From Strigamia acuminata (Eukaryota; Arthropoda; Chilopoda; Geophilomorpha; Linotaeniidae): a stretch of 64,000 bases of DNA. Made by a program: the position numbers and the translations under genes. Shown here piece by piece: positions 3,893 to 64,000 of this stretch. The stretch spans positions 7,550,501-7,614,500 of the forward strand of contig OX442318.1 in the NCBI GenBank assembly GCA_949358305.1. The letters are read 5' to 3'. How positions within the stretch are numbered: the stretch's first letter is position 1; each line of letters begins with the position of its first letter. Under the pieces are notes generated by a model. The model ran no database searches. It was not told the origin of the DNA and was given only the letters and a program-made list of their open reading frames with translations.

Positions 3893-4454
3893 CTGTAGGC
3901 ACTGAACTGCGTCTATCACCTGCTTGGGAGTCGGTTGGAGCGGTTCGACTCGCACGTGGCTCGATGGATTCCGAGGTGAGCGAATGGGCGGCAGAAGAGG
4001 ACGGTGCAACGGGGCTTGGCACGGACAGTGCCGACACCCTCGGCGTAGCGGTCGCGCTTGGCGGATGAAAGGAAGACAATACCGGCGGCACATTGGTGAA
4101 GGCGCTCGCGCTCGGATAACGTGGGGCCACGGCGGAGTTTGCAGGCACCGCCTTATTATGGTCCATGTTCTTTCTCGACTCGAAAGCCGTGGTCGCCAGC
4201 ACTCCGCAACTGCCCAACTGCGTGACCCCGTAGCGATAAGCGCAACCGAGCCAGTCGGCGGGCGTGGCGCATTCCTCCACTTTGACCTGCACGTGAGAAC
4301 CGCTGCACGAGTTGAGCACCGCACCCATGGACCCCAGGCCGGGGGGGCTCCGAGTCGCTTGCGAAGACGAGTAGTGGTGGTGGTGGTGATGCCCGTTGCT
4401 GCGTTTCTCACCTCCGCCGCCTTGGAAGGAGCAGCTCGTGCCATTCTCGAACAT
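3893..4454 (-). CDS. First coding exon of an unrecognised His/Ser/Pro-rich protein (partial gene)
   Basis: The exon opens with ATG at 4454 (MFENGTSCSFQGGGG) and ends at a strong CAG|GTAAGC donor with 187 codons plus one base. An acceptor (TTTTCAG|G) lies at 4477-4478, so the exon also carries ~21 nt of 5' UTR and an upstream non-coding exon is expected. The protein has a six-His run near residue 23, a more structured Cys-containing patch (about residues 55-95, including PADWLGCAYRYG), then a Ser/Pro/Ala-rich tail. This composition and the long following intron resemble the N-terminal exon of a developmental transcription factor, but no DNA-binding domain is visible, and the remaining exons would lie left of the window. 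The family is unknown. The GC content and reading frame stand out against the AT-rich surroundings. Confidence 0.6.
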
Positions 4455-4479
4455 GCTTAATTGACCTTAATTTGTCCTG

Positions 4480-5720
4480 AAAAGAATCGAAAGAAAAGAG
4501 AAAAGAGAAATTAAAAAATTGACACAAAAGTGTGCGTGCAAAATGATCACTTTTCGCTCGATATTCGGCCGGCGGCTACGGACGACGAGCAGCGCGCGCC
4601 ATCATCTCTCTCTCTCGGCTATTGTGACAAGAATCTGAGCGATGCCGCCAAAAGACGGCGCCATTACAAAAGCAAACATTGGTGCGCGACATTTGGTTGG
4701 AAATAAAAATTACCTGTCATTTTTTATCGATACGCGAGTTGCGGGAGATGAGAGAGAGAGAGAGCTGGGGAACGATAGGGAATCTCGGAGAGATTGGCGT
4801 CGCGTCGTCATACCTGATAGCCGAGCGGTCGGAATTTGTCGTCGGTTGCCCTCGTGCGAGGAGGGAAATCCTCCGGCAACGCGATGCGTCCGGTTGTTGA
4901 TCGGAGGCGGGCGACGGGGGGAGTCGGGTCTCGGATGTCACAACTAGTCAACTAGAATGAGTGTTTTGCAGCGCGGCGATTTTTTCCTGCCATCTGCGCC
5001 CATTGACGATGACACCTTAATTAAATGTGTTAGTGGGCTGGCGGTGCCAATTAAGAAAGCCGACTGCAACGCCCCCATACCCACAACAACCCCGTCGCGG
5101 GCGCAAAGAAGGCGCACGTGGTCATCGCCCGCAGTTTTGTTTATTAATTATCGATCGGCGGTGTTTCGTCCGCGCTGTTTGCCGACGCAATTTGTACGCG
5201 AACTCGTAAGCAGTCGCTCTCGAGGGGATTGTGGAGTGGCGGCGGCGGCTTCCCTGCGTGCTCATTGGATGCTGCCAGCCTATCTGGAGCCACGTTGGCT
5301 TTGTACATATTGATGAGCACGTGCACGCGCTCTTGTTGTCCCCCAATCGGAGAGAGGCAGCTCGAGTTTAATTCGAAATGTTGGCGCAAGAAGAAAAAAA
5401 GAAATTTTGGGTAACGAGAAAAATTTCAATTAATCAAATTCTTTTCACTAGATAGAACACTCATTTCGTTGACCCTATTGAATCGCGTGCAATTTGCATA
5501 ACGTTTCTCTTGGAATTGCTTTAGTACGAGTCTTTTGCGAGTTCTCAAAGTGAATAAGAGCTTTGATTTGCTTCTCGGAGTCGCCTCCAGTCCGTCTGAC
5601 CTTCCTCTTCCTCTCACCCTGCCGGATATCGGGGGCTGAGCGAGCATGTGACCGTGTCGTTCTCGTTGGTGGCGTATCCATTTGCTCTCCGTGTCGGTCA
5701 TCAAGTTGGAAAAACGTTTT
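4480..5720. promoter_or_regulatory. CpG-rich upstream region of the minus-strand exon at 3893-4454
   Basis: This stretch is much richer in G, C and CpG than its flanks, has GA/CT runs (for example GAGAGAGAGAGAG near 4750) and overlapping short ORFs in several frames that look accidental. Its place just upstream of an acceptor and start codon suggests promoter, 5' UTR or first-intron regulatory sequence. Inference from composition and position only. Confidence 0.35.
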
Positions 5721-17228: not shown

Positions 17229-20200
17229 ATGCAGGCTGTCATCATTGTCATCATTATTTCAATTCCTCAGTTTGGTAAGCCTCGTTTAATTATTTTAAAA
17301 CTACGAAAAAAAATTATTATCAACTGAGTTTTGTCTTCAGGAAAATGTGTAGTGAGGCCTGGATTTGCCTGGATGCTTGGAACGCCACAACTAAACCTGA
17401 CAGATGAAATACCGACATCGGACATGGAAATTCCTTCCTACATCACTGCACAGCACTGTTGCAAAGTTGGCGAGTCACTTATCCGCAAAGTGAACACCTG
17501 TCAAGAACCCAGTGTGAGTGACACATTTTTTATTTATCCCATTCGCGATGATCTAACTCAGGGGTCGGCAACCTGCGGCTCGCGAGCCGCATGCGGCTCT
17601 TTCGATGCCAAGGCGCGGCTCTCCAAGCTGCGGCGTCGCTAAAACGTGCGTCGCTAAAATGAAGTACATTCATATAACTGGAAGAATGTACTTCACTTTA
17701 GCAACGCCCGTTTTAGCGACGCCGTTTTTTAATCTAATTAAACCTAACCTGACCTGACCTAACCTAAACAAACTAACCTGACCTAAACTAACCTAACCTA
17801 GCTGAATTTAGCAGCTGAAACACGGCGTCGCTAAAGTAATATACCGTACCGCCCCGTTTAAACGCCCGGGTTCAATAAAGCGCCGGTCCCGTTTTAGCGC
17901 CGGGCAGTCATCGGCGGTTCAATGAATTGGCGCCGGCTCCGAATAAGCGCCGGGTCTCCAAAAATTACCCCTTTTTGTAAAAAATCGATGATTTTTGCCG
18001 AAAAATCGCCATTTTTTGCGAAAAATCGGCGAATTTTCGGTTTTGCGCCGGGTTCAATTTAGCGCCGGGTTTCAAATTTGCGCCGGGGAAGCGGCTGAAA
18101 AAAAAATTAAACGCCCGGGCGTTTAAACGGTGGCTCTTTAAAAACTGGGAAATTATGTACATTTTAACTTTTGGCTCTTCTGTCTCAAAAGGTTGCCGAC
18201 CCCTGATCTAACTGGTTGATGGACATGGCAATCATTTTTTTAACCTCTTGAATCGGTCTCTCGCTACGGTTGGACTGAGGACGAAAAGCCGTTTCTAATC
18301 CACGCAATTTTCATGTCGAACATCATGCTTGCGCAGGCCAAAATGTTATACAATATTTTGGCCTGCTCTAGTAGTTCTACATTGTAGGTTGTTGCGTTCC
18401 TGGATGTTCCCAAAATTATAATAATAATAATTGCACAGAATATTAATCTAATTCAATGCAAAAGGTCCCGGTATTCAACCTGTGGAAAGCAGTTGAATGC
18501 CGTAAAAGGTCTTCTATCGGGTTTGGCAGTTAAGTTGGTGTCTAGGGGTTTTTTGGCTGTTGGTTTTGTGTCTAGGGGTTCTTTTGGTAGCAAATGCAAT
18601 AATAACAAGTAAGTTAAAAAAGGATAAACAGTTTTATTAATGTTAAAATTAAGGAGTAATATGAATACAAGGGATAAATAAATAATTAAGTGAATATTGC
18701 TAAAGTTAAACAAGGAAAGAAGAGAAAGGCGCGAGAACAATGGAATTGTTCGCGCGCGCGGAAACAATAGGTTGAGAAAATGGCGGCAACGAATCGCCGT
18801 GAAAATTGGTGCAAATGCACACAACCGGGCGCGGAATCGTGAGATTTCGCGATGTGATTCGGCTGTGGAGCCAGAATCGTGGCCAGCTAAATAGCCAGGC
18901 CGGGGTGGAGAATACGAGGTGTGAACCCTCGAGTCGAAACGGGAAATTCTCCGTTGAAAACTCACGAGTCCAACTGGCGTAGTTCGCACTGTCGAATTCG
19001 GTTTTCAGGTGTCCGCTTCTTCTCGGCAAATTACCGTCGTCAGTAGGTCGAGCGTCGAGGTTTCGTCGGCTTTCGCGCGTCGTCCCTCGTCAACTCGGCG
19101 GCTGGCTGGCGTCGATCTTCAACGTATATCACTCGAATTACCGTCGTCGGTGGCTAGCGTCGAGGTTTCGTCGGCTTGGCGCGCGTCGTCCCTCGTCAGC
19201 TTGGCGTCTTCCAGGCGTCGGTCTACGATGGCGTGTATACGTTTATCTTCGGGCGGCGGCGGAAACAACGGTTGCTCGGTCCGTTGCACGTCGACTTCGT
19301 CGTCCGGGAAGGAGTCACTTGATGCGGATGGGCATCAAGCAAATCAGTTGAATCTTTGCAATATCTCACGGATCACGGACAAAACAGTGTTTTTGGTTTG
19401 AACAAAGCTGTGTCGGTGTGAACGGTGTGAGGAGGAGGCAAAGAGTGAGTAATAAACGAATTTATTACTCAAACTTTGGCCGGAAAATCGGCCGAGTGCG
19501 CATGCGTGGCATGCACCTGGCACACTTCGTGCCCAGCAACGGTGCAAATTAGGAGCTGGCCATAGCAACCCCCCAATTTGGCAGTTAGGTTGCCATGGCA
19601 GTCCTAACGGCTTCTGTTTAACAGCCGAAAGCACTTGGCAATTGCAAATAAAATGAGTATTTTATTTGCACAAGCAAGCAAAAAATATGTAATTATTTTA
19701 ACAAATAATTCATTAAAAACACTAAAATAAATTGATTCCTTAAATTACCAATTTCTATTATTTCTAAATAATTAAAGGGACTGTAAAACAATTTATTTAA
19801 CACATTAAATAGATTAAATTATTAATTTCTTATACTCCAAATATTCCAAATAAAAGGAACATTTGAGATCACAACACTTCCCCCCAATTAAAATCAAACA
19901 TTTTTAATTTAAAAGGATGGAATATAGTGGGTTCTGATCACAAATTGTTCAAATAATTAAATTATTAACAAATTTGATTGTAATAAGATTTACGAATTTT
20001 CAAATGGAGGTTAGAACATGGAATAAAATAATTTAGTAGTGAAGAATTAGTTATTTTCTAGGCTAAAACTGAATTTCAACTAAAATTATTGGTAGTCACT
20101 ACAGTAGTGCATTAAATAATTCGAATAACAATTTGATTTTCAAGAAAAAGTTATGCAAACGATTAAATACGTAAAAAACAATGATATTAAAAATTTTAAC

Positions 20201-23200
20201 ATAAAAAGTTATTTAGTGGCATTGAATCCAATAAATATTGCCGATTGGTAACTCTGGGGTTAAAGGAGTCGGCAATCGAGGTAAGCTCATGTCTGTTGTC
20301 TTGTCTCGAAGGTTTTCCCTCTCGAGGACAAGTTCAAACGGACGGCCGGTATACGGCCCAAAAATTAAATCTGTGTTGTCGTGCAACCACTCACTTCTAA
20401 TTGAGCAAAAGTTGACGTTATCTTCAAACGTTATTTCGTTATTTTCTCGGGGCATTTTCGGCTTTTTTCTAACTTTTGTTAGCCGCTGATAATGAATCCA
20501 CGGCTGCTTTGCCTCGATGTGGCGTTCTGAGCGCTCTTGATCTTCGTACCCGAGATTAACTGAATTTTCTTGCAGCATCCTCATGTGTGGTTGCAGTCTT
20601 GAGTAGGTTTTTCGTAATTGGCGGTAAATTGTCAATTCTTCTTGATCTTCCAACTGTTTTGAGGGAATTGAACAAGGTTTCGCCGGTGACGGCGGTTTTG
20701 TCCGTGATGGACGTCTCTTTTTCGGAGACTGTCGAGACAGGGGAGGTGCGAAGACGTGTGTTTCGTAATTTGGTCTTGTCGCCAATGCGTCTTGTGCATC
20801 ATGCGCTAGTCGGTTGACCAAGCGATTTTTTCGCTGATGAAATGTCTTTGGCCTGGCGCCCGAGCTGGCATAATCGACAGTCCGTAGGATGGGTCCGCTG
20901 GAATTGGGTCTTGACGTTGAAGTCGGCGAGTTGATGGGCACTGCTTGTATTGTCGGAAATTGTCCTGAAGTCTTTGCTGCCTTTTTGATTGTTTTTACAG
21001 CAACACCAGCAGCAGGATTCAATGTTGATGAAGGTTTTGTCTTCTTCTTGACCAAGGAAACCGGCATTTCTTCTGGTTGAACTGATTCGAGCTCCGTTTG
21101 GTAGGTATCTCCTCGTTCATCTTGTTCATTCAGCAGTTTGACCAACTCGGCCGAATGTTTGGAAATCGAAGCTGGTGGAGACTTCTTTTTTAGCGTTGGC
21201 GAAACTGGTGTCTCTACTGATTGAATCGCTGGGAGTACATGCTTGTGAGCGATCTTCCGTGGCTTCCGCTTCTTGTGAAGTTGGATGGCCGATTCGGCCA
21301 AGTGTTTGTTACTAACAAGTACAAGTTCTTGCTGTATGGTCGACGAATCTAGGAGAATGGACCTCCAGTAGTCTAAAAAATTATCTTGGTTACCAGTATT
21401 CATCGGGGGTGTCCAGAGACATATTGCGTCTGCGAGGGCAATTCGGTTGCTTGTGGCGGTGCTCCGAGTTAAAATGCTGCAAAGTCCCGCGACCAATAAT
21501 TGTTGTAAAGCGGAGAGTTGAATGTCCAGGGCATTGGTTGGCTCCATGTCGCGCAGATGACTGATTATACGCTGCCAATTTTGAATGGTTTTGCCAATTT
21601 GAGTCCTTTGATACTCATTCAGGTCTTCCATCAAAATATCTTGTGTGTCACGAGGCAATACTTCAAAACTGGACTTCGTCACGTCATAATTTTGGTCAAA
21701 CAATCGGCTTTGAGTCAAAGAAACTGTTTCAAATTTCTCAGCCGGAAATTGAGATTTTGGAGTGCTTGGTTTTGGATACACAGAGGTTGTGATGGATTTA
21801 CTAGCAATAGATACTTCTTGTGCATTCGGGCGTGTTAACACTGGGGTCAAATGGGTAATTGGTTTCTCCAAATTTTCAACTTGCATTAACACTGGGGTTG
21901 AATTGATAATTGTCTTTTCCCAATTTTCAACTTGCATTAACACTGGGGTAAAATTGATAATTGACTTTTCCCAATTCTCAACTTGTGTGGCCCAATCCAT
22001 AGCCGTTTGGTCGGCTGTCTGTGACAATTCCAAGGGATAATCTTTTTTGATTTTTGCCGCTGTTGGCACGGAATTAATATTTTCCAACGAGACGATTGGT
22101 GTTGGAGTGGCGGAGATCGGCGCATCACAGGCTGAGGCATAAATTTCTGCCGGTGGTGATGTGTCAGTCTCTGCGTCCCATCGTTTCTCTGCTTTGCTGA
22201 GAGGCTTTTCCTTTGCAATTGTTCCATGTGGCTCACACACTTCTACGTCTTCATCCCGCTCATCAGAATTTTCATCGGAATTTTTATCAGGCTGTGGAAC
22301 TTGGTGATATGACGTTTCGTATCGTTGTTGTTTAGTGAGCTCACCAAATTCACAAATTTTTCTTTCAGATTGACATTTGGGATGGTCTTTTTTATCAATA
22401 AAGGTAAATTTTGGTTGCGCACCCTTATTTATTTTAGATGCATCAAACGACCTTTTTGTAAAAAGCTTTTTAGGCTTACATTTATCTTCAGCCACGTGTT
22501 TAGCTAACACTACATTGGTATTACCAATTGTTGAGCCGGTTTCTCTTTCGGCTTTCACTTTAACTTTGAGATCGACTTCATTCATCGAGTCAACAATGGT
22601 AAGTCGAGTATGAGAATGAGAAGTTTTTGTAGAACAATGAGGATTCTGCACGTGATTAATGTTTTTTGCCGGTTTCTCGGCAAATGTAGTTGCACTTGAT
22701 CTCTCGAAAGTTTGTTCTCGGTATTCAAATGTTTTTTCAATCTCTTCAGTCGCGTTGTAAATTGGGGTCCAATCTGATGGTGAAGATGCACATGTTTGAG
22801 GACGACTTTGTTGTCCCCCCACCTTAGGTGAACGCGTTGACTGTTCATGGCTGAAAGCGGAATTTTCACGTCTTGATTGATATGGCGGAGAACAATTACT
22901 ACTTTTTTCGCATTCCTTCTTTGGTGGATTAATATATGTTGGTGAACCGTAATGTGATTGAGAGTCATTGAAATTATTTCTAAGATCTGAATTTTTGCAG
23001 AAGTTGCTAGATAATTTCGCACTTTGTTCACAATTTTTTGAGTCTATGTTATTCAATATTTCATAATTTGAAGTGTTCCATTTTTTACAGTCAGAAGCTT
23101 CCATCGTTGAACTTCTTTTCATTTGAAATTTTCGTTCATCATTACTGGACGCACAGAACGAACGATTATTGTCAGTAGTTGCAAGATTAACCATTTTAGG

Positions 23201-26083
23201 TTTGAACGCCGTGACATCCGGCGAATTCGGTTGTTGAGTTGTAAACTCGGCTGATCGAATCTTCTTCAAGAGTTCGTCTATCTCTTCCTGAGATTTTTGT
23301 ATTTCCGCAAATTTTGCCGTCCATTCGGTTTTGTGAAATTGTCGGCATGGTGATGATGGTGTTTCACGAATTTCATGCGACTTTTTCCATTTTCGATCCG
23401 CATCTAACCATTGTTGTGGTTGTAAGGTGAAGGATTCGTCCTCACGGTGGGATAAATTCTTTGTACGCTTCTGTTGCAAGTTAGCTATCTCTTGCAGTTC
23501 CAATTCACAGGCTTTAGTTCTATTACAAATTTCTTTGTCTAGAGCTTGTTTAGTTTCATCAAGCTCTCTGCTTGTTCTTTCCAATTCTTCAATTTCGGCA
23601 CTTTCATTTGCATTTTCCTCGGCCGCACAATGTTTATTTAAAACGAGTTTGGCTTGTGATAAATTCAATCGGTCTCGAGTTAGTCGCATTTCGAATGCTA
23701 ATGTCTCTATTTGATAATCCATTTCATCGACAAATTGTTCGCTTTCAAAATTGATCGTGGCTAGGCGAATTTTCTCGGCCGCGTCTGGATCTACGAGGAG
23801 AACTTCGGCAACGAGCGCTTCAAACTCTGGTGACCGCTGAGGAAATTCATATCTTTGTCTTGGAGTCGAGGTGCGTGGTTGAGTACGATCATTTACTTTG
23901 TCAATACTCCTTTTTGTTTCAGCATCCATTTCACGATCCGTTGAAACATTTTTGAATTTTTGAAATGAACGTTTTTTCGCATCAAGTGAAATTTCAGCCG
24001 ACATCTCGGCTTCGGCAATTTCCAATCGAGTTTCGGCTGAGCGTTTAGCCGTTACTTCCTTTGGAAAACTACTGCGCCGAGTTTGGGCACCTTGTGGGCA
24101 GTTAGACCCGACTATTGGACGACTATACGTCCTTCCCTCAATTGGCGAAGGGACTTCATCATGTAACTTAGGCATGATGGCAAGAATGTTACAAAAAGAG
24201 AAGAAAGATGATAGGAAAGTTAGAAAAATAGGTAAAAAATACTAAAATGGGGAAAAACAAGATTTTTTAATTTTTTAATCTTACTTTAAATTCTAAAAAT
24301 TGGGATTATCCCGGCCGGGCCCCCAAGTGTTGCGTTCCTGGATGTTCCCAAAATTATAATAATAATAATTGCACAGAATATTAATCTAATTCAATGCAAA
24401 AGGTCCCGGTATTCAACCTGTGGAAAGCAGTTGAATGCCGTAAAAGGTCTTCTATCGGGTTTGGCAGTTAAGTTGGTGTCTAGGGGTTTTTTGGCTGTTG
24501 GTTTTGTGTCTAGGGGTTCTTTTGGTAGCAAATGCAATAATAACAAGTAAGTTAAAAAAGGATAAACAGTTTTATTAATGTTAAAATTAAGGAGTAATAT
24601 GAATACAAGGGATAAATAAATAATTAAGTGAATATTGCTAAAGTTAAACAAGGAAAGAAGAGAAAGGCGCGAGAACAATGGAATTGTTCGCGCGCGCGGA
24701 AACAATAGGTTGAGAAAATGGCGGCAAAGAATCGCCGTGAAAATTGGTCAAATGCACACAACCGGGCGCGGAATCGTGAGATTTCGCGATGTGATTCGGC
24801 TGTGGAGCCAGAATCGTGGCCAGCTAAATAGCCAGGCCGGGGTGGAGAATACGAGGTGTGAACCCTCGAGTCGAAACGGGAAATTCTCCGTTGAAAACTC
24901 ACGAGTCCAACTGGCGTAGTTCGCACTGTCGAATTCGGTTTTCAGGTGTCCGCTTCTTCTCGGCAAATTACCGTCGTCAGTAGGTCGAGCGTCGAGGTTT
25001 CGTCGGCTTTCGCGCGTCGTCCCTCGTCAACTCGGCGGCTGGCTGGCGTCGATCTTCAACGTATATCACTCGAATTACCGTCGTCGGTGGCTAGCGTCGA
25101 GGTTTCGTCGGCTTGGCGCGCGTCGTCCCTCGTCAGCTTGGCGTCTTCCAGGCGTCGGTCTACGATGGCGTGTATACGTTTATCTTCGGGCGGCGGCGGA
25201 AACAACGGTTGCTCGGTCCGTTGCACGTCGACTTCGTCGTCCGGGAAGGAGTCACTTGATGCGGATGGGCATCAAGCAAATCAGTTGAATCTTTGCAATA
25301 TCTCACGGATCACGGACAAAACAGTGTTTTTGGTTTGAACAAAGCTGTGTCGGTGTGAACGGTGTGAGGAGGAGGCAAAGAGTGAGTAATAAACGAATTT
25401 ATTACTCAAACTTTGGCCGGAAAATCGGCCGAGTGCGCATGCGTGGCATGCACCTGGCACACTTCGTGCCCAGCAACGGTGCAAATTAGGAGCTGGCCAT
25501 AGCAACCCCCCAATTTGGCAGTTAGGTTGCCATGGCAGTCCTAACGGCTTCTGTTTAACAGCCGAAAGCACTTGGCAATTGCAAATAAAATGAGTATTTT
25601 ATTTGCACAAGCAAGCAAAAAATATGTAATTATTTTAACAAATAATTCATTAAAAACACTAAAATAAATTGATTCCTTAAATTACCAATTTCTATTATTT
25701 CTAAATAATTAAAGGGACTGTAAAACAATTTATTTAACACATTAAATAGATTAAATTATTAATTTCTTATACTCCAAATATTCCAAATAAAAGGAACATT
25801 TGAGATCACAACAAGGTTGCGGCACAGCTGGTACTGTTGTTAATTTTTATTATTTTTCTTTCAGCTTCGTTCTAATATGCTAATTAAAGGACAAACGCTC
25901 AAACAAGAAATTGCCAAAGGTTTAGCACTGGAAGTCTCGCGTTGCCAGAAACATCAACATTTGCTGCACAAATGTTGCCTGTTTCGCCTGCAGTATGTGA
26001 TCGCTTTGGAATTGTGCGACACTAAAATGCTGTTTGAACGATACAAGTGTCGTATTCGTGTCAGAAATACGTTTGGTCAATAG
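17229..26083 (+). CDS. Small secreted Cys-rich protein, three exons, 145 aa
   Basis: Join of 17229-17274, 17341-17513 and 25865-26083. Exon 1 starts MQAVIIVIIISIPQF, a hydrophobic signal peptide. The donor G|GTAAGC, acceptor CTTCAG, donor AGT|GTGAGT and acceptor CTTTCAG join in consistent phases (1, then 0) to a TAG at 26081-26083. The mature part has a spaced Cys pattern: KCVV, HCCKVGES, NTC, SRC, HKCC, ELC and YKC. Two CC pairs with surrounding single Cys recall anaphylatoxin-like folds of extracellular proteins, but that is a weak resemblance. Intron 1 is 66 bp. Intron 2 is 8351 bp, and all but ~270 bp of it is two inserted transposons (17559-18205 and 18390-25813), so splicing must span a 7.4-kb retrotransposon. 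A polyadenylation-like AATAAA follows at about 26169. Confidence 0.65.
17631..17724. repeat. 40-bp foldback inside the hAT-type element
   Basis: Arms 17631-17670 and 17685-17724 match at 37 of 40 positions as reverse complements, with a 14-nt loop. Both arms contain the word GTCGCTAAAA, which recurs singly near 17825. Confidence 0.8.
17741..17801. repeat. Degenerate CCTAA/TTAGG-like tract
   Basis: About ten tandem, imperfect units such as ACCTAACCTGACCTAACCTA. On the other strand these read (TTAGG)n-like, the common arthropod telomere repeat, with frequent CCTGA variants. It sits inside a transposon rather than at a chromosome end. Confidence 0.6.
17854..18130. mobile_element. Nested inverted-repeat block rich in GCGCCGG words
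   Basis: CCGTTTAAACGCCCGGG at 17854-17870 is the perfect inverse of CCCGGGCGTTTAAACGG at 18114-18130. The interior repeats GCGCCGG(G/T) about six times with AAAAATCG runs between. Likely a small MITE nested in the hAT-type element. Confidence 0.6.
18333..18366. repeat. 12-bp perfect hairpin in intron
   Basis: GCAGGCCAAAAT (18333-18344) and ATTTTGGCCTGC (18355-18366) are perfect complements around a 10-nt loop, just left of the LTR element. Confidence 0.7.
18390..19876 (-). repeat. Left LTR copy (3' LTR of the minus-strand element)
   Basis: 1487 bp, TGTTGCGTTCC to GATCACAACA on the plus strand. It contains an internal near-duplication of the word TCGAGGTTTCGTCGGCTT (about 19057 and 19160) and short ORFs of 130 and 96 codons that are identical in the other LTR and are not considered genes. 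Confidence 0.95.
19877..19887 (-). promoter_or_regulatory. Polypurine tract of the LTR element
   Basis: TTGGGGGGAAG on the minus strand, directly abutting the LTR start TGTTGTGATC; the expected second-strand primer site. Confidence 0.85.
20213..24175 (-). CDS. 1320-aa unknown protein encoded by the LTR element
   Basis: Intact ORF, ATG at 24175, leader of ~150 nt after the LTR. Residues ~115-250 are Glu/Lys/Leu-rich and likely coiled coil (EELERTSRELDETKQALD). Residues ~725-785 hold three tandem 17-residue repeats of the QVENWEKTIINSTPVLM type, encoded by 51-bp DNA repeats. Much of the rest is Ser/Thr/Lys/Asn/Pro-rich and probably disordered, with basic patches (KKRKPRKIAHKH, KKRRPSRTKPPSP) and a compact region around residues 880-990. 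I see no CCHC zinc knuckle, aspartic protease, reverse transcriptase, RNase H, integrase or membrane segment. A structural Gag-like role is the simplest guess because it follows the primer-binding site directly, but no Gag similarity is visible. Preservation of an open 3.96-kb frame argues that the element uses the product, or that it is very young. Confidence 0.85.
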   Translation of the reverse strand: MPKLHDEVPSPIEGRTYSRPIVGSNCPQGAQTRRSSFPKEVTAKRSAETRLEIAEAEMSAEISLDAKKRSFQKFKNVSTDREMDAETKRSIDKVNDRTQPRTSTPRQRYEFPQRSPEFEALVAEVLLVDPDAAEKIRLATINFESEQFVDEMDYQIETLAFEMRLTRDRLNLSQAKLVLNKHCAAEENANESAEIEELERTSRELDETKQALDKEICNRTKACELELQEIANLQQKRTKNLSHREDESFTLQPQQWLDADRKWKKSHEIRETPSSPCRQFHKTEWTAKFAEIQKSQEEIDELLKKIRSAEFTTQQPNSPDVTAFKPKMVNLATTDNNRSFCASSNDERKFQMKRSSTMEASDCKKWNTSNYEILNNIDSKNCEQSAKLSSNFCKNSDLRNNFNDSQSHYGSPTYINPPKKECEKSSNCSPPYQSRRENSAFSHEQSTRSPKVGGQQSRPQTCASSPSDWTPIYNATEEIEKTFEYREQTFERSSATTFAEKPAKNINHVQNPHCSTKTSHSHTRLTIVDSMNEVDLKVKVKAERETGSTIGNTNVVLAKHVAEDKCKPKKLFTKRSFDASKINKGAQPKFTFIDKKDHPKCQSERKICEFGELTKQQRYETSYHQVPQPDKNSDENSDERDEDVEVCEPHGTIAKEKPLSKAEKRWDAETDTSPPAEIYASACDAPISATPTPIVSLENINSVPTAAKIKKDYPLELSQTADQTAMDWATQVENWEKSIINFTPVLMQVENWEKTIINSTPVLMQVENLEKPITHLTPVLTRPNAQEVSIASKSITTSVYPKPSTPKSQFPAEKFETVSLTQSRLFDQNYDVTKSSFEVLPRDTQDILMEDLNEYQRTQIGKTIQNWQRIISHLRDMEPTNALDIQLSALQQLLVAGLCSILTRSTATSNRIALADAICLWTPPMNTGNQDNFLDYWRSILLDSSTIQQELVLVSNKHLAESAIQLHKKRKPRKIAHKHVLPAIQSVETPVSPTLKKKSPPASISKHSAELVKLLNEQDERGDTYQTELESVQPEEMPVSLVKKKTKPSSTLNPAAGVAVKTIKKAAKTSGQFPTIQAVPINSPTSTSRPNSSGPILRTVDYASSGARPKTFHQRKNRLVNRLAHDAQDALATRPNYETHVFAPPLSRQSPKKRRPSRTKPPSPAKPCSIPSKQLEDQEELTIYRQLRKTYSRLQPHMRMLQENSVNLGYEDQERSERHIEAKQPWIHYQRLTKVRKKPKMPRENNEITFEDNVNFCSIRSEWLHDNTDLIFGPYTGRPFELVLERENLRDKTTDMSLPRLPTPLTPELPIGNIYWIQCH
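21836..21990 (-). repeat. 51-bp tandem repeat inside the 1320-codon ORF, three copies
   Basis: Three copies sharing TTAACACTGGGG and TTCTCAACTTG-type words, exactly in frame (17 codons each). Copies differ by several substitutions, so the repeat is older than the insertion. Confidence 0.85.
24308..24325 (-). promoter_or_regulatory. Primer-binding site, tRNA-Pro type
   Basis: The minus strand reads TGGGGGCCCGGCCGGGAT two bases after the LTR end. This differs at two positions from the well-known tRNA-Pro primer site TGGGGGCTCGTCCGGGAT. Confidence 0.8.
24328..25813 (-). repeat. Right LTR copy (5' LTR of the minus-strand element)
   Basis: 1486 bp; identical to the left copy except near 24728 (A for C) and near 24749 (one base missing), as far as read by eye. 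Confidence 0.95.
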
Positions 26084-32585: not shown

Positions 32586-35375
32586 CTACTCTCTAACAGT
32601 TAGATTGACAATGGCACAATAGAGAGGAAATGTAACTGTACGAGAAAACGGGTATTCTCTCTCCCAAGTATTGTTTTGCAAATTAAAAACTAACATTTTC
32701 CCGCAATAATCCAGCACCCAAAGTCGGTTCTCGTGCGGCAAAATGGCCATAGATCTTCTCAAAACGCATGGGTTGCAACCAACAGTTATGTGAAGCCTTT
32801 GCCACTTTTTAGAGCCCAAATCCAGAGACCACATAATAGCAGGAGCATAATATCTAAAGACAAAAACAATAAAACATCAAATCAACTCTTCTTTCATATC
32901 ACTTCAACCAACTTCTTACGATATCGCATATATCTTTCGATTGATAGACGCCACAACCGGAACCGTGTTGCAAAAATCATCCGGAAGACTTCCAATATTA
33001 GTCCACTGGTTCACTTCGGGATCGTACGAATGACACGCCAAAGACCACCCATTCTCGCAAAAGTCGTTGTCAACGTAGCAACACCCGCCCAGAGTCCACA
33101 GTTTCCCATCGCAGGACGCAACACCAATGTCCCAACCCGCGTACGGCAACGATTCCGCAATATCCCATCTATCCAGAAGGATATCGTATCTTTCAACGTG
33201 ATTTAAGGGCTTCCGGTGGTGTCCAAGACCCCCAACTACGTACACGTGCCAGCCGAGAACTGCTGCATTGCTCGAAGAACGAGCAGTGTTCATTCGACCA
33301 CCCTAAAAACAAAACAAAAATCAATAACAATCCGATTTCTATTTTGCTGCGATTAACCGTGTTAAAACTGTTTTGTTCTACGTTGTAGATTATAGTGGAT
33401 CGCAGCACGATCTCCTTGCTATCTATTCCGCCGGCCAAGTACAACATATTCCCGTGCAAAGCCCACGCTGCGTTGTTGGCCAACACTTCTTCTAGATTCA
33501 ACGCACTCGTCCAAATGTTGGTTTGCAGGCTAAAACAATGCGTCGCGGCTTCGCCATTCTTCTTCCAACCCATTATCAAGATGCTCGTGTCTTGCCGGAA
33601 CGACGTCGCTTCGTCGCCGCCCTCCGCCACGATTCGCAGCGGCGAAGACCACACTTTTCTTCGCGGGGTCTTTGCCCTCATCAATTTGTTCGCAGACCCC
33701 TGTTTGAACATCCCAGCGTTGGCCAGTTGAGTGAGGGGGAAGCGGACTGCGTCGTGGACCTTCAGTTCTTGTACATCTACCACCAATACTCTGGAACTCG
33801 ATGAGTCCGTTGCGGGTGATGGCAACTCTTTTTCCTCGGTAATAGAGGGCTCTGTGTCTTTTTTTAATGGCAGTATGGCGTCGGTTTCCGGTTGGAATCC
33901 AGCAACGCAGGTTCCTCTTGAGTATAGCGTCTCGGCAATGCATTTCCACAGCTTTTTGGACACTTCAACGCAAAGCTCGGTTGCGAGGAAATGTTCCAAG
34001 TCGTTTTTGGGAATTAAGGCGAATTTAATCAAGTGTAGGAGTTCTTCTTCCATTTGTACCAAGCGTATTGAGATGTTGGCTCCGGTCCATTTGAGGACCG
34101 CTGTCAGAGCGCACTTGGCTGCGCTGATTTCACGACATGGACTGCATAGTATCCGTTTGAGTCTTGTTACTTCGAGGTTTAGGAATTGTTTCTGAGATGA
34201 AAAGTATTGAAGATCGCGACCGACGAAACAGATAATCACATTCCGTAAAGAATCGCTGTCAAACTCGTCGGACAAGTCCCACATTACGCTGTAAAAGTGA
34301 ATTCAGAATGAAACAAGCCACATAATTGAGTATTGGACAGAAAATCAAATTTTAGGCCAAAAAAAATGAAATTTTTGGCCCAAAAGTTCAAATTTTAGGC
34401 CAAAAAAAATGAAATTTTAGGCCCAAAAATTCAATTTTAGGCCAAAAATTCAATTTTAGGCCAAAAATTCAATTTTAGACCAAAAATTCAATTTTTGGCC
34501 AAAAAGTTCAATTTTTGGCCAAAAGGTTCAATTTTTGGCCAAAAAATTCAATTTTAGGCCAAAAAATTTAATTTTAGGCCAGAAAATTCAATTTTAGGCC
34601 AAAAAATTCAATTTTAGGCCAAAAAATTCAATTTTAGACTAAAAAAATTCAATTTTAGGCTAAAAAATTCAATTTTAGGCTAAAAAATTCAATTTTAGGC
34701 TAAAAAATTCAATTTTAGGCTAAAAAATTCAATTTTAGGCCAAAAATTCAATTCTAGGCCAAAAAGTGATTATTAAACCAAAAATTCAATTTTAGATAAA
34801 AAAAATAATTAGACAGGCTTAATTTATGCTAAAAAAATTGTATATGGCCTCAAAAAGCTTAATCAGGCTCTAAGAATGATTTATGGATGTTTGCACCTGA
34901 AATTTTCAGTTGTTATTGCATTCGAGAGCAAATTAGTTAAATAGACAAATAAATTCTCCATTTCAAGGGTTTTTGATGCTTGCAGTAATTGTCTGGTGCC
35001 TTCCAAGTTGTCAGGAATTGTTGTCTGTGTAAATAAATAAGATTAAACAAGAAATAGAACATATTACATTAGAAATATATTCACCTGGCCCGAGTACAAA
35101 TAATCGATGACAGAATTCATGCAGTCGGGGCTGATGGAAGCAGGCAGCTCCAAACTTGTTTGGTTTGCAACACTTGCTTCTTCAAGACGCTTACGAAAAT
35201 ACGGACATCCAATCACCAATACAACTCGATGAAGAGCAAACGGATCACCATCTTTGGAGACTATTACGATATCCGTAAGAATCTGGCTCCGTCTTAAACC
35301 GTCCAAAGCTGCGGATAAACTCTCGAAATAAAAATCAGGCAATGAGTTTCTTACGGCTGTAGCATTAAGATTCAT
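32586..35375 (-). CDS. BTB-BACK-Kelch protein A, five exons, 666 aa
   Basis: Join (minus strand) of 35085-35375, 34897-35024, 33358-34288, 32920-33302 and 32586-32853; all junctions are GT-AG and in phase, total 2001 nt. Family role: Kelch-like proteins are usually substrate adaptors of Cullin-3 ubiquitin ligases. The BTB domain covers about residues 13-125 (ILTDIVIVSKDG, FALHRVVLVIGCPYFRKRL, IDYLYSGQ). BACK follows at about 140-265, then a ~100-residue polar linker, then Kelch repeats from about 360 to the end with GG-type strands (LYLAGGIDS, VYVVGGLG, LWTLGGCC). Introns are 60, 608, 55 and 66 bp; the 608-bp one is filled by a minisatellite. AATAAA signals lie just past the stop (about 32535-32547). 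It is a tandem neighbour and relative of the gene at 35737-37925. No one-to-one orthologue is claimed. Confidence 0.9.
34335..34800. repeat. Minisatellite, ~20-bp monomer, ~22 copies, in intron 2 of Kelch gene A
   Basis: Tandem AAAAATTCAATTTTAGGCC units with GG/GA and CC/CT variants, filling most of intron 34289-34896. The core AAAATTCAATTTT is the reverse complement of the core of the array in the Hmx intron. Confidence 0.9.
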
Positions 35376-35736
35376 TACGACTCAATAACAAGCTATTGCT
35401 ATAAAATAGGAACATTTCACAAACCTACTGTTGTTTAAAACTCACGTGACAACTATTTCCACTCATTGTTGTACACACAATCACAAATGAACAGCCAAAC
35501 TTGAAAAAATCTCTGTAATTTTTTATTTGACCAACAAAATTGGTTAATATTTTTGTTTATACAAAATATGCAGACATTTATACGACTAAATTTTAAAAAT
35601 TGTACATGGAAGATTCAGTTTTAGAACTAGACATTTTGCAAAATAAAAAAAAACTAAAACACAGACTCAGACTTAATAAAATGTAACAAAAGATTCAAAT
35701 TAGACAATTTTTTTGGTTCTCTCCCCGAGAAAATCC
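35376..35736 (-). promoter_or_regulatory. Intergenic region between tandem Kelch genes
   Basis: 361 bp separating the stop of gene B from the start of gene A. It must hold the end of B and the promoter of A. The minus strand has an AT-rich TATTTTATAG about 27 nt upstream of the A start codon. Nothing else recognised. Confidence 0.4.
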
Positions 35737-37925
35737 TCAATTCTGCTCGTTAATTATGCACATTGACAAATGAATCGGCTGCAAATGACATTTCGGAATC
35801 TTAGACTCCAACGACCATCTCTTCGACACCGGATTGTATTTAAAAATCTTGTTCGACTTCTCCAGCACGTACACACTCTCCTTCCAGCTGGTGGCACTCA
35901 TCACCCACAGCGGGGGGATGCCCTTGATCAGCTCCGGTCTCCAACACTGGTTCATTATGTCCAAAGCGTACAGTTTGGTCGGTCTGTAATAGTTGAACAC
36001 GACCGCAGTGCCGTGGAGCGTCACCAATATCGGCGCCATCTGCGAGAACTCTTCGGGCAACGACGGCAATTCCTTCCACTCCTTGTGGTCCGGTTGGATA
36101 TACTCGCACTTATTGCATCCCCCGCCAACAACCACAACTTTTCCTTGGATGTAACACGCGAGACAATTCCCCTTCCGCCTGTGTCTCATGGGCGGCCAGT
36201 TGCGCCAAACCGGCGGCTCTTCGCTGATGTCTATGTACTCCACTTGACTCAAAGCGTCCGTGTATCTTCCCTCGCCGCCGACCACGTACAGAACGGACCC
36301 CATCATAAACAGACACGGCGAGGAGCGCGGAATGTGCAAATCAGGCAGACGACGCAGCACCTTGTTCTGGATGTTGGACACGAAGACCGATCTAATCTTG
36401 TCTTTGCGGCTCTCGTCTTCGCCGCCGACCACACATACCAACGTCTTGTGGACCATGATCGTCTCTTTTGGCGCGGATGTGATTCCCAACTCGCACATGC
36501 TGTCCCACTTGGACTTGGCCAGGTCGTACGCCAACAAACTCAGTCGGCAGTTGGTCGGGTTGACTCCGATGACGACCAAAGCCGAAGACGACGGCGAACT
36601 TCCACCGTCGGCGATGGTCATTTGCGTGCCTATCATCATGGCTCTTGGTGGCGATTGAGGGGCCTTGAATGCGTTGGACAGTTTGTCGGAAGACGCGTAG
36701 CTCGACACTAGCGAGGACTCCCATTGGTCGCTTCTGCAGTCCATGTCCACGTGGTCCGAGAGAACGTCGAGAGCGACTTTTTTCGTCACTCGTTTCGCGC
36801 ATTTGGATTTGATCGACGTGACGGTCGTGCCGCACTCGGACGGGCATTTCTTTTTCGACCAAGTTGCACTCGTCATTCCGTCTTGACAGTCGACCACAAT
36901 GACCGCATTGTTGGCTTTCGGGTGATTGGTGGGCGTCGAGTGGTGCAAGGAATGGTAGACCACGTTCCTGTTGAGTTCCTCCTTGAACCGGAAGCATTCC
37001 TAACGAAAGAAACCAACAAAAAAAGGAATATACCAATCGATTCGATCAAACTCACTTGTACAAATGGTTCGAATTGCAGTAGATATCTCGCGTACGCTTC
37101 CGACACTTCCGGCATTCGAATGAACGGTATTAAAGCATCGATCGAACTCTTCCTTTCCGCAAGATTCGTCTTGAGCCACGACACCAGCATCCGCAAGACA
37201 ACGTTCTGTTGCACCTCTTTATTGGCGTACGTGGCAGCTAGCAGGTGCAGCATGCGGTCTTCAGACAGCGCCATCAAATCGCTGCTTATCCAGAGCGAAT
37301 CCAAGTTGTCTACAATGTAAGTGACCACTTCCTTCCGCATACAACGATTGGCCATCGAATCAGCCATGTCCCACAGATGGACAAAGTTCTTTGGAGCTAG
37401 ACATTGCCTTAAAACTTCTTCGCTGCAAACGTCCACTTCGTACAAGCCCAACTGCTTGGCCAATGTATTCACTTCTTGCAGTTTGCTCACGTCCAAATAC
37501 TTGAACGCCTGGAATTTGCCGGTGTACATAAAGTCCAAAAGACACGCCAATAGCTCCGCATCAAAATTATCTAAGTGGAGGGTGAGTTCCTGGTCACTCA
37601 GAGTGTTGAGTTGGTCTTTTAAGTAGGGACAGCCGACTGCCAGGACCAGTCTGTGCACGGATAGGTAGGAACCGCCGCAGACCAGTGCGACGTCGCACAA
37701 AGTACTCTGTTTGCGCATCAGGTTGAGCTGCTCGCGGAAGTCACTGTGGGCATTACCGGTTCGGAATTTGAAGAAGTAATCTTGGGGCGGTGAAGACGAT
37801 TTGTCCGAGCCGGGCTTCATCATTGCTGATATGGCGGCACTTCGGTCGATCTGGCGGGCTGGAATCGATTCGGACGGGCTCAGACTCAGCACCTCTTCCA
37901 TGTCGGATTGGTCGCCTAACGTCAT
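35737..37925 (-). CDS. BTB-BACK-Kelch protein B, two exons, 710 aa
   Basis: Join (minus strand) of 37056-37925 (290 codons, donor CAA|GTGAGT) and 35737-36999 (420 codons plus stop, acceptor TTCGTTAG); intron 56 bp. Start MTLGDQSDMEEV. BTB at about residues 60-165 (LCDVALVCGGSYLSVHRLVL, LLDFMYTGK), BACK at about 170-290 (LWDMADSMANRCMRKE, RMLVSWLKTN), then a ~105-residue linker with extra Cys and Lys (KKKCPSECGTTV) that is unusual for the family. The Kelch propeller runs from about 400 to 705 (VCVVGGEDESRKD, LYVVGGEGRYTDALSQVEYI, VVVVGGGCNKCEYI). Likely a Cullin-3 adaptor by family. The linker motif AVIVVDCQDG resembles RVLVVDVQEL in gene A, supporting tandem duplication. Exon 2 is GC-rich relative to the surroundings. 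Confidence 0.92.
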
Positions 37926-53971: not shown

Positions 53972-54646
53972 ATGTCGTCGTTGAAAGGCACACTACACGA
54001 ATACGATCCAGCCGATGATTATGGGAATTATACTGCATGCGGATGGCTAGTATCTTCGTTTCCAACAAAATCGGCATCAACTGCTTCGGTGCATGAAGTG
54101 CTCGACTCCAAACCACGTTTCAAGTTGAAGGTAGGCGGAAAACGCGCCTCAGAAAGCTCCACCATGTCTGCAGCTCCACAGCAGTTATCCAATCGAAAAG
54201 AAAATGCACCTGTGTGTCAGTCTTGCGGTAAAACGAACCATACACGCGATTCATGTCGTTTTCGTAATGCGACTCACGGTTGTGGACATAATGGCCATAT
54301 TCGCCCAGTCTGTCGTTCGTCCAGGCAGAAGACCACCGCCATTCATGCTGTCGGAATGTTGGAGGACATGGAGTTCTATCGAGTCCACGCTGGTTCTAAA
54401 ACTGTTTCTAATTCGGTATTTTTACCAAGAGTGAAACCGGTCATTGTGGTCATTCGAATCGCAGATGTAGACCTTGATATGGAAATGGACACAGGTGCAG
54501 GTGCATCAATTATCAGTTTGGATTGCTATCTAAAGAATTTTGCTCGTTTTCCTTTACAGACCATTCCGTGCGGTATGTCGACGTTCACTGGCAAACTAAT
54601 TTTCATGGAAGGAATCATCCAGGTTCTAGTAACATACAAGGATTGA
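53972..54646 (+). pseudogene. Gag remnant with zinc knuckle and protease
   Basis: 224-codon frame with a knuckle-like CQSCGKTNHTRDSC (about residues 82-95) and a retropepsin motif MDTGAGASII (about residue 173). The N-terminal Gag part is far shorter than in intact relatives, indicating internal deletion. The frame is lost after residue 224. Confidence 0.8.

Positions 54647-61583: not shown

Positions 61584-64000
<2,417 letters not shown>

Follow-up and report, generated by a model that had tools for sequence, protein, structure and literature searches.

A non-autonomous LTR retrotransposon with a single gene that joins parts of Gag to the third reading frame of Gypsy elements

Structure of the element

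The window analyzed herein is a 64,000-nucleotide stretch of contig OX442318.1 (assembly GCA_949358305.1, positions 7,550,501 to 7,614,500), in a 237-Mb, 157-contig genome. Positions 18390-25813 of the window are occupied, on the minus strand, by a long terminal repeat (LTR) retrotransposon with a single open reading frame (ORF), and its parts are as follows.

18386..18389, no strand: target-site duplication AGGT, left, from flank reading and comparison of the LTR pair
18390..19876, minus strand: 3' LTR, 1487 bp, from LTR alignment, with at least 51 matches in the genome
19877..19889, minus strand: polypurine tract AATTGGGGGGAAG, 13 nt, abutting the 3' LTR and identical in the copy of family A (see below) that was read
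20213..24175, minus strand: single ORF of 1320 codons, with a Gag-derived N-terminal half and an ORF3-derived C-terminal half
24308..24325, minus strand: primer-binding site TGGGGGCCCGGCCGGGAT, 2 nt after the 5' LTR
24328..25813, minus strand: 5' LTR, 1486 bp, from LTR alignment
25814..25817, no strand: target-site duplication AGGT, right, from flank reading

The two 1.49-kb LTRs are one mismatch and one 1-nt indel apart (with one end taken 1 base short, the alignment has 1484 matches, 1 mismatch and 2 gap columns). An original prediction, made from the letters of the window, had described near-identical LTRs, the AGGT duplication, the primer site, the purine tract and one intact 1320-codon ORF filling 89% of the interior; all of these were recovered here, with coordinates that agree within one base (the left LTR ends at 19876). 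The primer site is presumably of the tRNA-Pro type. Paired LTRs, a target duplication, a primer site and a purine tract, together with the lack of pol, make this a non-autonomous LTR retrotransposon. With at least 51 LTR matches in the genome and the ORF in nine two-LTR copies, the element stands well above chance.

Composition of the ORF

The ORF, which the original prediction had left as one of unknown type, can be traced by sequence comparison to Gypsy genes, and is best described as a fusion of Gag, minus its capsid, with a homolog of the third Gypsy ORF (ORF3). The homologies are to family A, a Ty3/Gypsy family of the same genome, and are distributed as follows.

23042..23848, minus strand: Gag-N, residues 110-378, a homolog of the heptad-rich N-terminal region of family A Gag (27.7%, 278 columns, E 9e-9)
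22694..22891, minus strand: pre-capsid stretch, residues 429-494, a weak match (E 8e-4 with uncorrected composition)
22409..22693, minus strand: Gag tail, residues 495-589, corresponding to the part between the capsid domain and the zinc knuckle (residues 492-589, E 7e-6)
20252..22300, minus strand: ORF3 part, residues 626-1308, matching family A ORF3 residues 283-891 (28%, 709 columns, E 1e-49)

By these matches, the ORF reads in the order Gag-N, pre-capsid stretch, Gag tail and ORF3 from about its residue 283, and the parts missing from the element are the capsid, the zinc knuckle, pol and the first ~282 residues of ORF3. The pre-capsid match spans residues 421-494 at E 0.038 when composition is corrected.

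Whole-genome searches tied the Gag pieces to family A. Residues 1-380 gave 39 rows, 12 of them self and 27 at A-family gag frames (29-31% identity, E 1e-8 to 1.5e-4), which were assigned by position and frame length, with the copy at C1:27.84 as the only one read as sequence; 24 of the 27 start no more than 4.5 kb from an A-family reverse transcriptase (RT), and the other three lie at 10-22 kb. Residues 330-620 gave 63 rows. Nine were self; the other 54 fall in gag frames of A or in pieces of such frames, 50 of them no more than 4.5 kb from an A-family RT, and they form two blocks that flank the capsid region of A gag. Single rows of this second search are weak (best E 0.0017), and its strength lies in their exclusivity to A gag frames. 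Gag profiles built from A and a third family were searched against five of the nine copies, with 300 shuffles as a control. The Gag-N profile scored 14-34 bits in the five copies vs. a shuffle maximum of 4.4, and the Gag-tail profile 14-20 bits vs. 4.1; the capsid profile had no match in any of the five. A capsid-bearing Gag was rejected on this ground as the identity of the ORF, and a captured host gene was rejected as its source, given that the homologs reside in Gypsy elements.

A Pfam scan of the ORF yielded nothing above the cut-off (the best entry was Kringle, E 0.029, with 15.1 bits vs. a cut-off of 34.3), and the zinc knuckle was absent by the same scan. The RT or integrase that the original prediction had proposed to look for in the ORF was not found. 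Neither the ORF nor the ORF3 of A had a match at E 1e-3 in protein databases of 5.8 billion sequences (about 8000 candidates scored for each), and nothing convincing emerged for the ORF among solved structures (best E 0.69). AlphaFold models of two pieces, each built from a single sequence, had pLDDT values of 42.6 and 38.3, too poor for a structure search.

Family A and other autonomous families

Family A is, from its predicted domains, a complete Ty3/Gypsy family in which protease (a weak match), RT and RNase H are followed by integrase. In the copy read, gag carries Retrotrans_gag and CCHC matches, and pol carries RT, RNase H and integrase; the protease match in pol is at E 0.008, below the cut-off. 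The RT of A occurs at 27 places at 98-100% identity, 19 of which have a full 1497-codon frame, and its ORF3, downstream of pol, gave 70 rows, including 21 unbroken frames of 893 codons and one of 925. In protein databases, the pol of A matched ordinary Gypsy pol of many animals at 32-45% identity.

The original prediction had proposed looking for an autonomous element whose LTR ends and primer site match, and A fits that description, with the ends and the primer site each within one base. The LTR of A starts with TGTTGCGATCTCAAATG and that of the window element with TGTTGTGATCTCAAATG; both end in GGAACGCAACA. The primer site of A differs by one base from that of the window element, and equals the version found in the copies at C1:21.07, C6:4.67, C1:29.70 and C4:12.0. 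The single A copy read has the same 13-nt purine tract and a 4-bp duplication, and a leader stretch around ACTTTCCTATCATCTTTC is common to the element and A. Local alignment of the LTR to that of A found two segments, one of 424 nt at 75.7% (E 2e-72) and one of 99 nt at 82.8%. Global alignment scored 591 vs. a maximum of -145 in 20 shuffles; the global identity of 78% is not readable alone, as shuffles reach 65-71% in such gapped alignments. The ORF DNA shares with A matches of 25-29 nt only. Cis-acting parts close to those of A, combined with a protein far apart, fit a satellite obliged to keep its partner's signals.

Two further autonomous families carry related ORF3 genes. In a third family (example at C11:8.48 Mb), pol is 61% identical to that of A over the part read, gag is 44% identical over 444 columns, and a 756-codon ORF3 frame directly downstream of pol, of which the first 105 codons were fetched, matches that of A. 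ORF3 frames of this kind, those other than the example being placed in the third family by an inference from frame length, match A's at 34-43%, over about residues 393-627 (34-38%) and 714-882 (41-43%) of A. In the ORF of the present family, these two blocks fall at residues of about 786-1000 and 1171-1309. The other family, n6 (L019/L020, C6:14.00-14.01 Mb, minus strand), is a 12.9-kb three-ORF Gypsy element with identical 820-bp LTRs, nested in an LTR of the C6:14.01 copy; it carries gag, pol and a 932-residue ORF3, the C-terminal part of which matches the ORF3 of A at E 3e-14. Its match to the ORF of the present family is weak (E 7e-6). With a profile of five family copies, the best domain in n6 ORF3 scored 9.3 bits vs. 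5.0 for the best of 500 shuffles, and the whole sequence scored 0.8, below the best shuffle's 5.5. The ORF3 proteins of A and n6 have no Pfam family at E 0.001. From these matches, ORF3 is a conserved gene of autonomous families.

Neither nested element qualified as the partner. One (n4) has pol, but its LTR and primer site are unrelated; n6 has the same type of primer site, but a distant ORF3 and an LTR that is alike only at its end. A closer autonomous family was sought at nine further LTR places (L017, L018 and L022-L028), and no pol or ORF3 match to A appeared there at E 1e-4; the gag half of that search was uninformative, as the Gag-N query missed even own-family copies at those settings. 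L024, the sole exception among the nine, holds the start of the family's own ORF. None of the 51 LTR places listed starts within 33 kb of any of 147 listed RT places, both lists being incomplete (the RT of n4, nested in one copy, is missing from the second). Two of the nine places, L017 and L018 (C10:3.03-3.05 Mb), hold two 89% LTRs with identical flanks, probably a segmental duplication, and long 21-bp tandem repeats that contain open frames.

With these ORF3 proteins at hand, an envelope (Env) function can be weighed. If ORF3 were of the envelope type, the element might be an Env-supplying helper of its partner, as the non-autonomous TelKA2n of bdelloid rotifers, which retains an env-like ORF (PMC5408684), could suggest. 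Mean hydropathy over 19 residues peaks at 1.52 in the present ORF, 0.80 in the ORF3 of A and 1.65 in that of n6, values that point to no likely membrane span in an assessment made by hydropathy scan alone, with no signal-peptide program. Basic clusters appear instead of a span (KKRKPRK lies at residue 968), and Pfam held no glycoprotein match. An env-like protein was rejected as the identity of ORF3 on the scan and the Pfam result, and we regard the helper explanation as very improbable.

Copies in the genome and state of the ORF

A genome search with the LTR listed 51 matches, with 40 of 171 candidates scored. Nine two-LTR copies were found among the matches listed: the window copy and those at C1:21.07, C1:32.25, C3:21.40, C6:4.67, C6:5.44, C1:29.70, C4:12.0 and C6:14.01 (a match on C50 shares the flank of C4:12.0 and was treated as the same site on a different contig). 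In every one of the nine, the two LTRs of a copy match exactly or are 1-2 positions apart, which places each insertion in the recent past. By-eye reading of the flanks, with a shared T/A end base assigned, found 4-bp duplications in seven of the eight non-window copies, that is, in all outside a tandem array. The C1:32.25 copy sits in that array, ordered LTR-interior-LTR-interior-LTR; at this place (L010), the upstream interior is joined directly to an LTR, as after unequal recombination.

The original prediction had raised the possibility that the ORF is usually broken. It is present in all nine two-LTR copies and unbroken in six (window, C1:21.07, C1:32.25, C6:4.67, C6:5.44 and C6:14.01); in the other three it is split by nested insertions of about 0.65 kb (C3:21.40), 1.65 kb (C1:29.70) and 10.9 kb (C4:12.0). 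The C3:21.40 copy was reported as one 1485-codon frame in one analysis and as separate frames in two others. No stop occurs in the aligned codons of the nine copies. Upstream of C1:32.25 lies an extra partial copy whose match contains one TAA, and there is a short family fragment at C5:8.14. The insertion in the C3:21.40 ORF (L011, about 4283-4925) has inverted ends near TTAACACTAGAAC and resembles, by eye, a miniature inverted-repeat transposable element.

Pairs of copies are 0.8-8% divergent over ORF sites, far above the LTR-pair differences, and some copies are mosaic. The window copy and C6:14.01 agree completely over codons 541-900, but 23 of the 180 sites in codons 121-180 distinguish them. 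Such mosaics are as expected if different RNAs share particles, and they fit co-packaging. One length difference falls at the junction of the two halves.

22226..22435, minus strand: 210-nt stretch at the Gag/ORF3 junction, residues 581-650, with ends that are not GT...AG

This stretch is found in three of the nine copies (window, C1:32.25 and C6:14.01) and is missing from six; lacking GT...AG ends, it was ruled out as an intron. The ORF also holds three 51-bp tandem repeats (window 21835-21987; a 17-residue unit around QVENWEK), and 51-nt indels between copies suggest that the number of these units varies. Window positions 20396-20575 (codons 1201-1260) are invariant over 180 nt between the window copy and the other eight, synonymous sites included, as is an LTR bin at 19590-19709. 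These stretches are possibly cis-acting signals or products of recent homogenization.

Selection on the ORF

Nei-Gojobori ratios among the nine copies range from 0.25 to 0.78 (36 pairs). As this method ignores mutation bias, a null that preserves each mutation type was used. Eight copies were compared; C6:4.67 was left out for its unusually divergent N-terminal part, a choice made after seeing the data. Their 317 variants comprised 116 synonymous, 201 nonsynonymous and 0 stop changes, vs. null means of 89.7, 213.2 and 14.1, respectively; the synonymous count was reached in 1 of 500 runs, and as few stops in none of 500. Over the whole ORF, the ratio of nonsynonymous to synonymous variants (N/S) was 0.68 of neutral. 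Relative to the same null, N/S was 0.79 in residues 1-109, 0.65 in 110-378, 0.75 in 379-589, 0.65 in 590-785 and 0.91 in 1001-1170, and the two lowest values were found in the following modules.

21176..21820, minus strand: ORF3 module 1, residues 786-1000; purifying selection is clearest in this module, which autonomous families also conserve (N/S 0.48, with the synonymous count reached in 3 of 500 null runs)
20240..20665, minus strand: ORF3 module 2, residues 1171-1312, conserved in autonomous families; few variants (N/S 0.36 from 9 variants only, 50 of 500 runs)

With C6:4.67 included, there was 1 single-step stop vs. 19.4 expected, the lowest of 400 runs being 8. Indel lengths are multiples of three in 32 of 36 cases in the ORF vs. 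6 of 16 in interior noncoding DNA, counts that come from pairwise alignments to the window copy and include shared events more than once. The case for selection rests on the absent stops, the kept frame and ORF3 module 1, and less on Gag-N. The ORF appears to have been kept open selectively through several recombining, recently transposed lineages. The original prediction's view, that of an LTR element that is non-autonomous and encodes a single protein of its own, is in this respect supported, as the protein looks selectively maintained.

An alternative to selection is that the element derives from internal deletion: two in-frame deletions (one of the capsid, one from the knuckle to ORF3) would have left a functionless fused ORF that stays open because the family is young. 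The near-identity of the LTR pairs in all nine copies agrees with such youth, the 210-nt indel without splice signals means that deletions do happen at the junction, and the synonymous excess becomes unclear once C6:4.67 is included. Against it, divergence among copies far exceeds that within LTR pairs, so the lineages replicated apart, and over that divergence the eight-copy set shows no stops where 14.1 were expected and an N/S of 0.68 of neutral, with the ORF kept in every two-LTR copy. We consider a functionless derivative unlikely.

The distribution of constraint also bears on whether the element is a semi-autonomous Gag supplier of the RLG_Quinta or TR-GAG type, adding structural Gag to mixed particles. 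The Gag-N and Gag-tail homology would suit this role, and Quinta and Cereba, a pair already described in print, have LTR ends and primer site in common in the same manner (PMC11302176). Yet the parts missing from the ORF, capsid and zinc knuckle, are those that build particles and bind RNA, and the best-constrained part is ORF3, not Gag; a supplier of Gag thus seems quite improbable.

Comparison with known systems

LTR elements without pol, such as LARD, TRIM and TR-GAG, normally carry either no ORF or a Gag, and non-autonomous LTR elements are usually viewed as passive freeloaders or Gag suppliers. The present element instead carries a capsid-less Gag-ORF3 fusion; TR-GAG is defined by an ORF with Gag capsid and zinc knuckle, neither of which was found here.

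The proposal of a new class in the original prediction was overstated, since non-autonomous LTR elements that keep a Gag or an env-position ORF are already in print (TelKA2n, PMC5408684; RLG_Quinta, PMC11302176). TelKA2n is a non-autonomous LTR element of bdelloid rotifers that lacks most of pol and the C-terminal end of gag, and like the present element it is a relative of a three-ORF LTR family that has retained the third ORF. That ORF is described as env-like, and ORF3 variation in the bdelloid genome as mostly neutral (PMC5408684); in the element described here, the ORF3 part lacks a likely membrane span, continues in frame from Gag pieces and bears signs of purifying selection. RLG_Quinta and RLG_Cereba of wheat are a non-autonomous/autonomous pair that have their LTR ends and primer site in common, along with part of the LTR. 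Quinta has one intact ORF that combines Gag with a domain of unknown function, and its Gag is similar as protein and barely as DNA (PMC11302176), much as in the present case; Quinta retains a clear Gag, whereas the element's capsid is gone and its second part can be traced to the ORF3 of a partner-like family. Concerted evolution of regulatory DNA common to partners is described in plant pararetroviruses (PMC5491270).

A comparable layout is that of CERV, a nuclear protein of Cer1 in Caenorhabditis elegans that is needed for export of unspliced Cer1 RNA and that has no obvious homology outside nematodes (PMC10309623). CERV is made by splicing, which joins Gag peptides to an env-position ORF. 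The likeness to the present ORF, in which an N-terminal half from Gag leads into an env-position ORF with pol skipped, is one of layout. Cer1 Gag has a predicted coiled coil before the capsid domain, and the present ORF has a heptad-rich stretch near residue 137. CERV is spliced from a complete element and has one unique peptide, 517 aa and an essential cysteine loop (all PMC10309623), whereas the present element, which lacks pol, encodes the joined frame directly in its DNA. No pol-less element encoding a Gag-ORF3 fusion of the CERV kind was found in open PMC text, as judged by titles and the starts of abstracts, with subscription literature outside the scope.

Proposed explanation

We consider it probable that the element is a satellite Ty3/Gypsy retrotransposon that encodes an RNA-handling Gag-ORF3 fusion and is mobilized by A or a close relative. 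The Gag-Pol of A would package, reverse-transcribe and integrate the satellite RNA; the Gag N-terminal region of the fusion protein might join the Gag of A, and the ORF3 modules might act on the element RNA, in nuclear export or particle loading. The fusion protein may prefer its own encoding RNA enough that copies with a broken ORF fail to spread. Most speculatively, the element could have originated when the spliced ORF3 mRNA of an ancestor resembling A was reverse-transcribed. The evidence for mobilization in trans by A, the shared ends and the mosaic copies, is circumstantial, and a CERV-like accessory role in RNA handling is, from the layout, the likeliest function. A more specific form of the proposal, in which a spliced CERV-like mRNA founded the satellite, the sole gene is an RNA-export or packaging regulator, the partner's Gag-Pol is used, and the LTRs have stayed near the partner's while the protein diverged, is possible but rather doubtful.

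Several observations weigh against this explanation. Pfam, the databases, the solved structures and AlphaFold gave no structure or known-function match for any biochemical role. When C6:4.67 is included, 137 synonymous variants vs. 120.5 expected (standard deviation 9.4) are within two standard deviations, and N/S in Gag-N is 1.04 of neutral. With an ORF3 only 28% identical, A would be a present-day partner rather than the direct parent. Support for a splice origin is thin: one donor-like GTAAAT and a phase-matching AG flank the capsid region in the gag of A, the donor is not present at the same place in the third family, and such motifs are easy to find. SL1 had no match at up to 1 mismatch, and the host may not be a nematode. 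CERV has 517 aa vs. 1320 here, and a counterpart of its cysteine loop was not seen by eye, with no CERV sequence aligned; cysteines around residues 600-647 fall in the 210-nt stretch that six of the nine copies lack. Finally, an intron-free RNA would need no CERV-type factor for its own export, so the benefit would lie in packaging or in raising the partner's output.

The gene retained by this element joins pieces of Gag to the env-position ORF, the portion of its relatives that is least understood, and was apparently kept by selection after the capsid and the enzymes were lost. The element thus offers a minimal natural setting for direct tests of what this ORF3 does, and prompts the question of whether the RNA-handling accessory proteins of retroelements work in cis.

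Other features of the window

Outside the element, window positions 53972-54646 (plus strand) hold an ORF of 224 codons in which a degenerate stretch resembling CCHC and a protease-like motif, DTGAGAS, were seen by eye; it has no Pfam match at E 0.001. Host genes of the BTB/BACK/Kelch type lie at 33193-37925 (minus strand), and a homeodomain host gene lies at 61584-62150 (minus strand).

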